Of a stretch of DNA of 23,593 nucleotides, positions 10,686 to 13,458 are shown in pieces (position 1 is the stretch's first letter; every line of letters starts with the position of its first letter). The stretch is taken from the IMG/VR virus record IMGVR_UViG_3300024346_000523, positions 1 to 23,593 of that record. One strand, written 5' to 3'. The stretch comes from a virus. The notes under the pieces were generated by a model. It did not search any database. It saw nothing but the letters and a program-made list of their open reading frames with translations, and had not been told where the DNA came from. Both the position numbers and the translations under genes were made by a program.

Positions 10686-11552
10686 ATGTCATCTAAAAAC
10701 CCATTATCAAAACATTTTAGAAAACCAAAAATATATATGACTGTGCCCACGAAGGGTATATTTAATCCAGAGATTGAAACAAGTTTAGCAGGTGATATCG
10801 GCATTCTTTCAATGACTGCCATGGATGAACTTATTTTAAAAAATCCAGACGCATTATTGAATGGCGAAGCAGTAATCACAGTTATAGAAAGTTGTGTGCC
10901 TGCTATCAAAAATCCAAAAGAACTGGCAAGCATTGATGTCGAAGCATTGATCATTGCTATCAAATACGCAACATATGGCAGTGAGTTAACACATCATCAT
11001 ACGTGTAGTGAATGTGGTGCAATAAGTGATTATACGATTGACTTGAATTATATAATTAATCGTTTTCCAGAATATGACCATGAACCTATAATAGAACACG
11101 ATGGGGCTAAATTGCATATTCGTCCTCCCACTGTTGAAATCACAACAAAACGCGCATTGGTTGATCTTGAACAAACCAGTGTCATTCGCAAATTAAAAGA
11201 TATGATTGAAAATAGTACTGCGGATGAAACAACTGATACAGACATAGAAGTTTCAAAACGCTTTTTCGACTCTTATAAGAAAATAGCATCATACAACATT
11301 GATATTATTGCTAATCTGATTCGCTATGTTGAAATGGTTGATGACCAAGGCGAAAAGCAAATAGTTGATAATGTTGAACATATCAGAGAATTTATTTCTA
11401 ATTCTCCAAAGAATGTTGTAGATAAAATAACTGATATTCTGTTAAAAGAATTTGAACCAAACGAAGATTTATATATGTTTGAGTTTACTTGCCCAGAATG
11501 TAATCATACATCAAAAGTAAAAATGGATATGAATCCTATAAATTTTTCATAA
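10686..11552 (+). CDS. 26: Baseplate hub assembly protein, T4 gp26-like
   Basis: A 288-residue protein of the T4-type gp26 baseplate family. It has a typical N-terminus (MTVPTKGIF near residue 18), and two CxxC pairs, HHHTCSECGA (C107, C110) and FTCPECNHTS (C269, C272), that probably form one zinc site. The family is needed for assembly of the central baseplate hub. CAGGAGAG lies before ATG 10686, and the gene has a good sigma70-type promoter. It is followed within 5 bases by the gp51-like gene, the same order as T4 26-51. Confidence 0.85.
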   Translation: MSSKNPLSKHFRKPKIYMTVPTKGIFNPEIETSLAGDIGILSMTAMDELILKNPDALLNGEAVITVIESCVPAIKNPKELASIDVEALIIAIKYATYGSELTHHHTCSECGAISDYTIDLNYIINRFPEYDHEPIIEHDGAKLHIRPPTVEITTKRALVDLEQTSVIRKLKDMIENSTADETTDTDIEVSKRFFDSYKKIASYNIDIIANLIRYVEMVDDQGEKQIVDNVEHIREFISNSPKNVVDKITDILLKEFEPNEDLYMFEFTCPECNHTSKVKMDMNPINFS

Positions 11553-11557
11553 GCTGG

Positions 11558-11779
11558 TTGGCGCAAGCGAATCAGCAAGAAATTGTAGAAAAACAAAAAA
11601 AATATGAAAAAGAACTTGACACGACACAGAAGAATATGATAGACTTACTATGGCATATGAGGGGGGGAATAACAATTTCAGAAATTTATGAACTCCCTGT
11701 TGATATGTTTAAACACATAAATGAGTTTATTGCAACTCGGTACGAATTAAGTAAAAAAGCAAAAACCCCAATACTCTAA
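11558..11779 (+). CDS. 51: Baseplate hub assembly catalyst, T4 gp51-like
   Basis: A 73-residue protein with the family core LLWHMRGGITISEIYELP and a C-terminal stretch ending in TPIL, very like the short gp51-type proteins of T4-like phages. It follows gp26 directly, as in T4. gp51 is thought to act catalytically in hub assembly and is not known as a virion part. The frame begins with TTG 11558 and there is no closer ATG before the conserved core, so a TTG start is likely. In T4 the hub gene 27 follows; here a non-coding structured region follows instead. Confidence 0.75.
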   Translation: MAQANQQEIVEKQKKYEKELDTTQKNMIDLLWHMRGGITISEIYELPVDMFKHINEFIATRYELSKKAKTPIL

Positions 11780-11789
11780 TACAACACAC

Positions 11790-11833
11790 AATACTAATAC
11801 AATACTAATACAATACTAATACAATACTAATAC
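11790..11833. repeat. Four exact 11-bp tandem repeats upstream of the structured RNA
   Basis: The unit AATACTAATAC is present four times without a change, after a degenerate copy that overlaps the end of the gp51-like gene. Each unit junction contains TACAAT, a near match to a -10 box. The array may separate or help transcribe the RNA that begins just after it. Confidence 0.85.
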
Positions 11834-12144
11834 AATACCGACATAGCAGAACTGTTGATGGTGTAGGCCATCCGGGATTGAGATTGCCAGGGATAAACTC
11901 CTGATGCCGTCAGATGATGCAGGTGGGTCCTGCGACACTTCTCGTTAACTGCAACCTTTGATCCGTAATCAAAGAATATCCGTGTGCCTAGTCTCGCACG
12001 GATACCAGTGACTGGAACCAATGTGTACCAGTACCTTTTTCTAAAGTAGACGCCCCCCATCGGTCAAGTTTTAACTTGTGTCGCGGTGGAATAGATTAGG
12101 CGGGAAACAGAAATACCGATGATAGATTATTATAGTCCTATCAG

Positions 12145-12278
12145 CTTATAGCACCCACGCTTCATAACAGGTGTTATAAGTGCCGTTTCGTTGCAAAGCA
12201 AGCAATTGGAAAGCGTAGAGTTAAGGGGGGATAGCGAAACCGACCCCGCCAACTGGTGGCTAACTCAATGTTATGAAG
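12145..12278 (+). other. Pseudoknotted core of the structured RNA
   Basis: An 11-bp stem (CTTATAGCACC / GGTGTTATAAG, one G-U pair) presents a 14-base loop. Its last ten bases, CTTCATAACA, are exactly complementary to TGTTATGAAG at 12269-12278. Between them lies a three-way junction closed by GAGTTA (12218-12223) and TAACTC (12261-12266). A second possible tertiary pairing joins GTTTCG (12185-12190) to CGAAAC (12235-12240). Confidence 0.7.
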
Positions 12279-12475
12279 ACAATTCTCCCATGCGAAAATT
12301 AGTCAGTTTAAGCAAACATTTACTCTATGTAAATGTTTCTTAATTTAATTGTCCCGGCAACAGGGCAATTATGACTACAACCCTGCGAATGGGTTATAAT
12401 AATATGATATTAATCACAAATCATAATATACATTATATTCCTATGGATTCCTATGAATATATTAAATAAAAGAAA

Positions 12476-12529
12476 TGTAGATAAGATTTATGAGTGAGCG
12501 TAAGCGACATGAATAAATCGAAATCTACA
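12476..12529 (+). other. Long terminal hairpin of the structured RNA
   Basis: TGTAGAT pairs with ATCTACA, then GATTTAT with ATAAATC, each 7 bp. The internal purine-rich loop and the GC-GTAA-GC tip carry a GNRA-type tetraloop. The next hairpin, with a GATA loop, starts at the very next base. Confidence 0.7.
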
Positions 12530-12542
12530 GGAGCACCGATAG

Positions 12543-12734
12543 GTGTCTCCTTCCAGTATTGATCTAAATGACAATAATTGGAGTTACAATATTGATCTAA
12601 ATGACAATAATTGGAGTTACAATATTGATCTAAATGACAATAATTGGAGTTACAATATTGATCTAAATGACAATAATTGGAGTTACAATATTGATCTAAA
12701 TGATAAGTATTATGCAAGAGAAATGAAAGAGTAA
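12543..12734 (+). CDS. Doubtful small repeat ORF (11-residue repeats)
   Basis: A 63-codon frame begins with GTG 12543, nine bases after AGGAG. It encodes four exact copies of an 11-residue unit IDLNDNNWSYN plus a partial one, then KYYAREMKE. The repeat length of 33 bp keeps the frame open. The DNA copies are identical even at silent sites, and both the ribosome site and the start codon lie in the terminal hairpin of the RNA (12530-12550). It may therefore be an accidental frame through a DNA or RNA repeat, or a translationally masked small protein. Confidence 0.2.
   Translation: MSPSSIDLNDNNWSYNIDLNDNNWSYNIDLNDNNWSYNIDLNDNNWSYNIDLNDKYYAREMKE
12558..12703. repeat. 33-bp direct repeats, four exact copies plus 14 bases of a fifth
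   Basis: Units start at 12558, 12591, 12624, 12657 and 12690 (partial) and have no base differences. Each contains the near-palindromes CAATAATTG and, at the junctions, CAATATTG. An (AT)n tract at 12740-12756 follows. There are no spacers, so this is not a CRISPR array. The structure resembles an iteron array next to an AT-rich stretch, but no replication protein is seen. Confidence 0.95.
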
Positions 12735-12912: not shown

Positions 12913-13458
12913 ATGCCAAGTAAAAGCAAAATCAAAGGATCAGCCTTTGAGAGGGAGATGGCAAAATTTCTTAGTGAAAAATATGACGAGAGTTTTGTTC
13001 GTGTACCTAACTCAGGTGCTTACATTGGTGGTAAAAATCAAAAAAGAACTGATGTATTATCCGAGGGGCAAATTAGAGCATTTAAGGGCGACATTATTCC
13101 ACCAGATGATTGGATTTATTTTAACTCCGAAGCAAAGTCATACGCAGATTTTCAGTTTCATGCGTTGATGACGCCAGGCTACATTCCTATTTTAGAATCT
13201 TGGATTAATCAAACTATGGAAGTTGCAGAAGAAAAAGACTTAAACATTCTGTTCATGAAATTCAATCGCAAAGGCAAGTATATTGGCTTTGAGAAAAAGA
13301 TTCTTGATCAAGGATTAGAAATGACAAATCACAACATTTATCAGAGTGAAAATCATGGTAAATGGGTGTTTGTCGGAGAAGAAGAATTTTGGGAAAAAGC
13401 AACAGAAGTTGTCCAGATTATTTCCACAGAGGGATATTACAATCAAGGCTATTACTGA
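12913..13458 (+). CDS. PD-(D/E)XK endonuclease, Holliday-junction-resolvase-like
   Basis: A 181-residue protein with the layout of Hjc-type or phage recombination nucleases. It has KGSAFEREMAKFL with Glu13, then VPNSGA, then GDI (Asp60), then SEAKSY (Glu73-x-Lys75), which together give a metal-binding PD-(D/E)XK site. The likely substrate is branched or recombining DNA. A homing or host-DNA-cutting role is also possible. It is the last gene of the rightward unit, 360 bases after the structured RNA, and converges directly on the next leftward gene (stop codons at 13456-13458 and 13459-13461 abut). AGAGG upstream of ATG 12913 is a moderate ribosome site. Confidence 0.65.
   Translation: MPSKSKIKGSAFEREMAKFLSEKYDESFVRVPNSGAYIGGKNQKRTDVLSEGQIRAFKGDIIPPDDWIYFNSEAKSYADFQFHALMTPGYIPILESWINQTMEVAEEKDLNILFMKFNRKGKYIGFEKKILDQGLEMTNHNIYQSENHGKWVFVGEEEFWEKATEVVQIISTEGYYNQGYY

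Follow-up and report, generated by a model that had tools for sequence, protein, structure and literature searches.

A large folded noncoding RNA beside the baseplate hub gene of uncultured T4-like phages

Few giant phage RNAs are known. GOLLD is a large phage RNA with a conserved 3' part and a variable 5' part, and ROOL, of which a 659-nt example has been described, is ornate and phage borne and contains multiple pseudoknots (PMC12286853). An ~800-nt noncoding transcript of ICP1 and the lncRNAs of phage K are large and abundantly transcribed in virulent phages (PMC7567579, PMC9241854). We analyzed a 23.6-kb virus record from IMG/VR (the window), which derives from an uncultured T4-like phage, carries T4-like head, tail, and late genes, and contains an RNA gene of ~715 nt. 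The plan of GOLLD, conserved at the 3' end and variable at the 5' end, is also that of the window RNA set, and ROOL resembles the window RNA in size, ornateness, and phage origin; neither gave an Rfam match to it. ROOL often lies near tRNA islands, whereas the window RNA adjoins a hub gene and a nuclease gene, and no tRNA was found in the window. The ICP1 transcript and the phage K lncRNAs, likened here by description, share with it the property of being large phage noncoding RNAs and lie at other loci.

Comparison of the window to Rfam gave no meaningful match up to an E value of 10. A sequence-only reading of this DNA had proposed checking the GOLLD, ROOL, and group I and II intron models, and none of them matched the window: the GOLLD and ROOL Infernal models gave no match at E <= 10 in the window and the relative L024 or at E <= 1 in L044, and no group I or II intron was matched by Rfam at E <= 10 in the window and L024. 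These results bear on whether the RNA could be a ribozyme or mobile element, such as a group I or II intron or an IscB/TnpB guide RNA. A GIY-YIG endonuclease gene adjoins the RNA in part of the family, and a weak match to IS605-orfB-I was obtained (15.8 bits, gathering score 94.2, E 1.4), but the latter covers just the 3' part and is at chance level. The flanking genes are intact, with no split gene at the RNA locus, no IscB or TnpB was found among the neighbor genes identified, and the locus is fixed, not scattered. Together with the missing intron matches, this leaves such an origin hardly credible.

Genomic locus and gene order among relatives

The RNA and its neighbors in the window are as follows.

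10686..11552, plus strand: gp26-like T4 baseplate hub gene (PF12322), by profile match; directly upstream of the gp51-like frame and the RNA
11558..11779, plus strand: gp51-like frame of 73 aa, after gp26; conserved in relatives
11788..11840, plus strand: leader of CTAAYA repeats, with an 11-bp unit, ACAATACTAAT, repeated 4.6 times (TRF)
11841..12555, plus strand: whole RNA gene, ~715 nt, by covariation, fold, and alignment of relatives
12913..13458, plus strand: PDDEXK_15 endonuclease (PHROG: RusA-like resolvase), by profile match; the nuclease adjoining the RNA

The boundaries first proposed from the sequence, 11838-12550, were correct to within a few bases at each end, as was the placement of the RNA beside gp26, the hub gene, and the gp51-like frame. 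The latter had no profile match of its own and no PHROG match; we take it to be gp51 from its position and general knowledge. The view that the RNA lies inside a baseplate transcription unit held in part: it follows gp26 and gp51 on the same strand; however, a nuclease gene comes next, and in other clades the hub gene is on the opposite strand. Upstream of the RNA, CTAAYA occurs 5 times in 120 nt in the window, compared to 0.31 expected, with 3 to 7 copies in 17 further members and only 1 in L003. No late promoter TATAAATA was found near the RNA in the window.

Three other features of the window were recorded. A slippery heptamer, A AAT TTT, lies at the gp26 end (11540-11552) with the gp51-like frame in -1, and the AAATTTT string is present there in 19 of 19 members examined, which suggests a programmed frameshift that would fuse hub and gp51. 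A perfect tandem repeat (33 bp, 4.5 copies) at 12557-12703 encodes an in-frame 11-aa unit, YNIDLNDNNWS, resembling the N terminus, MSDWTYNNEIVNELP, of relatives' GIY-YIG proteins, and may perhaps be a relic of one. Tandem repeats of 51 bp at 571-1159 lie inside a minus-strand frame for an 802-aa virion protein.

Homologues were sought with a degenerate pattern of the core of the window and of L003, a syntenic locus with local identity to the window RNA in the core, scanned over IMG/VR. Most matches in a first pattern scan were due to chance. The core pattern found 35 contigs, of which 34 were real and 1 (L121) was a chance match, so that the window clade comprises 34 other IMG/VR contigs and 24 distinct sequences including the window. 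The RNA is 507 to 565 nt long in most relatives and 683 nt in L003, and it is present once in contigs of 246 and 342 kb. In prokaryote genome contigs, the pattern gave 76 matches, all without the GTGCCGTT context and all judged to be chance. When the window RNA and wider-family representatives (described below) were compared by blastn to annotated phages, no homologue was found, the few matches being short or AT rich.

The gene order in 23 mapped relatives is hub gp26, gp51, RNA, nuclease, gp46, gp47, and sigma55, as far as the contigs reach (L019 and L106 have no upstream flank and L096 has no downstream flank). A nuclease gene follows the RNA in 22 of the 23, the contig of the remaining one (L096) ending there; it encodes PDDEXK_15 in 10 of the 22 and a SegE-type GIY-YIG protein (PF19835) in 12. 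Because the nuclease is so regular a neighbor, we considered whether the RNA binds or guides the adjoining endonuclease as a cofactor, scaffold, or inhibitor. Most loci with a long enough flank show the nuclease next to the RNA, nucleases of two unrelated folds interchange while the RNA remains, and the pairing outlasts rearrangement, the nuclease lying on the 3' side of the RNA in the window clade and on its 5' side in others. No PDDEXK_15 was found elsewhere in seven GIY-YIG contigs, which are fragments, so that this absence is uninformative. However, SegE-type GIY-YIG genes in the isolates inspected lie at other loci without the RNA (Melnitz, S-SRM01, phiM12, ACP17, S-RSM4, S-ShM2, and others; V45v66 in this survey is unannotated), in Atu_ph07 a PDDEXK-type gene comes immediately after gp51 and the RNA is absent, and in L003 two ORFs of 219 and 171 aa (L003:3840-5011), neither with a match in Pfam, separate the RNA from the nuclease. 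In addition, free-standing homing endonucleases frequently occupy late-gene gaps. Since isolates hold related nucleases without the RNA, we regard such a partnership as unlikely, and slightly less likely still is that the RNA and an exchangeable endonuclease form one functional unit, for example an RNA-scaffolded or RNA-directed PDDEXK or GIY-YIG nuclease employed by T4-like phages.

Structure and covariation of the RNA

The RNA comprises the following elements, all on the plus strand.

11841..11955, plus strand: 5' domain, by covariation; model R2, 101.1 bits (built with the window sequence included)
11846-11849/11949-11952, plus strand: H4, closing helix of the 5' domain, by covariation
11857-11862/11867-11872, plus strand: H1 hairpin of the 5' domain, by covariation
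about 11888-11903, plus strand: H2 of the 5' domain, by covariation
11919-11923/11929-11933, plus strand: H3 of the 5' domain, by covariation
11958..12004, plus strand: two window-private hairpins behind the 5' domain, by fold; a gap in aligned relatives
12121..12142, plus strand: H6 hairpin, GATAG...CTATC; outer stem 100% paired with no double change, two inner pairs switching GC/AT jointly
12144-12155/12170-12181, plus strand: H7 hairpin, whose loop contains the 5' strand of Plr; permutation p 2e-4
12160-12169/12269-12278, plus strand: Plr, long-range helix closing the core and enclosing 12160..12278, by covariation
12160..12278, plus strand: core; model R1, 68.2 bits (built with the window sequence included)
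12180-12187, plus strand: GTGCCGTT motif of the core
12218-12223/12261-12266, plus strand: H9, three-way junction, by core covariation
12225-12228/12244-12247, plus strand: H10, three-way junction, by core covariation
12248-12251/12257-12260, plus strand: H11, three-way junction, by core covariation
12347..12371, plus strand: H12 hairpin with a GCAA tetraloop; 98% of cells paired, 3 of 11 pairs double-changed
12478..12528, plus strand: H13 3' stem with a GNRA tip (GTAA, 12500-12503), by fold; relatives have a GAGCGNAAGC tip at the same position
12530..12555, plus strand: terminator-like hairpin, GGAG...CTCC, then TTCC; 94.4% of cells paired

Pairs were counted on two alignments with named helices, using shuffled and slid controls; shuffling ignores relatedness, sliding preserves it, and the two agreed. 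In the core, 98.7% of cells were paired, 11 of 24 pairs showed double changes, and the covariation score was 0.420, compared to 0.155 after shuffling and 0.04 to 0.07 after sliding. In the 5' domain, 96.4% of cells were paired and 11 of 21 pairs were double-changed, with a score of 0.354 versus 0.174 for the shuffled control. H5 was 92% paired. Relatives carry GUGG/CCAC at H4, where the window has GCAG/CUGC; H11 occurs as GUAG/CUAC, GCUG/CAGC, and GCCA/UGGC; and Plr occurs as CUGUUU/AAACAG, AUGUAU/AUACAU, and CUUCAUAACA/UGUUAUGAAG. AACCGACC is invariant in the core. The count for H13 (41% paired) came from misaligned columns and carries no information. The terminator hairpin is followed by a weak T run in the window and by AGGTCTTTAGACCTTT in relatives. 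The proposed search for homologues with compensatory changes thus yielded shared helices with heavy covariation.

Both helices of the H7/Plr pseudoknot were present in 13 of 13 members tested, and the pseudoknot is real. The ornate architecture proposed from the sequence was borne out by the covariation, the GNRA tips, and this pseudoknot, but several hairpins, among them those at 11958-12004 and 12314-12338, are private to the window. H9 contains a U-G pair in 16 of 19 members, and G-U pairs also occur in H12. Because the minus strand would have mismatches in place of the G-U pairs and the GNRA tips are on the plus strand, the RNA is assigned to the plus strand. The same evidence speaks against a DNA element, for example a replication origin whose repeats and hairpins act as DNA. 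AT-rich CTAAYA repeats upstream and a single locus per genome, where tested, would suit such an element, but only a plus-strand RNA explains why G-U is kept as a standard pair, and neither the GNRA loops nor the terminator in relatives fits a DNA element; we consider this reading very unlikely.

The region had been described as ~710 bases without a credible protein frame, and this was confirmed: the longest open frame over the RNA is 74 codons in the window and 59 to 91 in homologues, and no ORF is conserved. Plus-strand ORFs of the region had no match in relatives, and a 77-aa minus-strand ORF was matched in 12 of 18, and there just by short segments from the conserved 5' domain. The minimum free energy of the window RNA was -207.5, compared to -179.0 +/- 6.7 for 20 dinucleotide shuffles (z -4.3, 0 of 20 as good), so that it folds better than shuffled sequence. 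With a z of -3.7, the minus strand folds nearly as well, and fold energy therefore cannot assign the strand. A 560-nt cut of the RNA reached a z of just -2.4 and one coding control reached -3.0, so minimum free energy alone is weak support; fold energy was rejected as a discriminator between RNA and coding sequence, since 560-nt pieces separate the two poorly. Covariation is decisive, and it demonstrates that 11841-12555 is a real, strongly conserved folded RNA.

Related RNAs at the gp46-hub locus

We surveyed 80 loci with a PDDEXK-type gene and compared 44 distinct ORF-less sequences. Outside the window clade, stretches of mostly ~390 to 950 nt (one of 1.4 kb) without a 100-aa ORF lie directly behind the PDDEXK-type gene, and many contain the motif UACNGNNNRACCG within a helix as well as an outer long-range helix. 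This pattern was found in at least 120 IMG/VR contigs, some tens of chance matches being expected for an exact pattern of its length. Among the matches listed, the motif was outside ORFs in 69 of 80 loci checked, and 55 of the 69 had a helix of at least 6 bp at the Plr position. Most of those with enough flank lie between gp46 and the hub, adjoining a GIY-YIG or PDDEXK gene. Matched Plr strands paired better than strands exchanged between contigs (p 2e-4; 59 sequences, 51 of them helix-selected), and 53 unselected sequences gave a mean of 6.32, versus 6.29 for the best of 5,000 permutations. In 24 wider-family sequences, H10 was 93.3% paired, with a covariation score of 0.486 versus 0.224. A second core type, TTACAGRGCAACCGGTRGCG-like and with other helix strands, was seen downstream of the PDDEXK-type gene in L051, L055, L057, L059, L069, L072, L073, L074, L088, and L091.

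The 5' domain of L003 is similar to those of L048, L081, L085, and L070 (67 to 73% over 140 to 171 nt, E 3e-15 to 9e-18), and its core is of the window-clade type (74 to 85%, E 9e-15 to 3e-20); by sequence, L003 is chimeric and links the window clade to the wider set. In L052, R1 and R2 both matched weakly, in the right order and on one strand (E 0.0019 and 0.065, these E values being rough). The window RNA also lies between gp46/47 and the hub, adjoins a nuclease, and has the core layout of a long-range helix around H9, H10, and H11 with AACCG. R3, a wider-core model from which the window clade had been left out, found no match in the window. Because of the L003 chimera, L052, the synteny, and the layout, the window RNA very probably belongs to the wider RNA family at this locus.

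Polynucleobacter-1 (RF01718), an orphan Rfam family listed in 2010 (PMC2864571), occupies the same locus as the wider-family RNA and is there its 5' module. Rfam found it in 16 of 38 distinct wider-family loci or contigs scanned, at 46.9 to 114.6 bits: 1 of 14 (L044), 13 of 20 further loci, and 2 of 4 new contigs (L273 and L280), a convenience sample. The motif is only 141 nt, the 5' domain of the window differs from it, and neither the window nor L003 had a match (gathering score, 37 bits). It was not found in five jumbo isolates and one methylophage searched, and our literature search found no paper using the phrase "Polynucleobacter-1 RNA." What was previously catalogued is therefore just a small 5' piece of some relatives. 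The window RNA had been taken for an orphan of no family; instead, it is one member of a widespread RNA set, in sister clades of which Polynucleobacter-1 is the 5' module.

The wider family also bears on a cis-acting role, either as a leader of the nuclease mRNA or as a 3' untranslated region of gp26-gp51. In the window clade, gp51 and the nuclease flank the RNA and share its strand, and Polynucleobacter-1 is marked "y" in the second column of a table, which we read as possibly cis-regulatory (PMC2864571). In other clades, however, the RNA comes after the nuclease and points toward the hub gene, which is on the opposite strand, so that neither role holds throughout; moreover, a terminator hairpin closes the RNA in relatives, and the RNA is larger and more complex than usual leaders. 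We judge a cis-acting role improbable.

ORF-less stretches that fold better than shuffled sequence were also observed at the equivalent place in the jumbo phages PA5oct (L012:4480-5990, z -2.9) and Phosso (L013:4990-6000, z -5.2). They had no core motif, no convincing model match, and no sequence relation to the RNA, and are perhaps other large RNAs; a literature search found no PA5oct transcriptome paper.

A trans-acting RNA as the favored reading

Our analysis favors, with some confidence, a modular ornate large RNA that acts in trans, of the GOLLD/ROOL kind but unrelated to both in sequence. This reading draws on the retention of the locus in 23 mapped relatives though the nuclease is swapped, on the covariation, pseudoknot, plus-strand evidence, and lack of a conserved ORF, and on the single copy in the 246- and 342-kb contigs and the T run of the relatives' terminator. 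It is weakened by the weak T run and missing TATAAATA in the window and by the constant nuclease adjacency, which is also compatible with a nuclease partner or a cis element. The single-copy noncoding RNA of these uncultured phages would be transcribed on the plus strand behind gp26-gp51 and end at the hairpin terminator. Its fold, which covariation demonstrates for the 5' domain, the core, and H12, consists of a 5' domain that varies, a pseudoknotted core with the long-range helix around a three-way junction, and GNRA-tipped 3' hairpins. By analogy to GOLLD and ROOL, it would most likely act late in infection as a structural RNA, alone or as the scaffold of an RNP. Because L003 is a chimera and others carry Polynucleobacter-1, the 5' end appears modular; this module, exchangeable between phage lineages, would be the specific part, and common assembly would fall to the core and 3' part.

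The RNA set is more widespread and less of an orphan than it first appeared. It adds to the few known giant phage RNAs a widespread class that is unrelated to them in sequence by the tests made, and it shows the orphan Polynucleobacter-1 motif to be one part of a larger modular RNA. Its fixed genomic address and regular nuclease neighbor provide a handle for testing what giant phage RNAs do.
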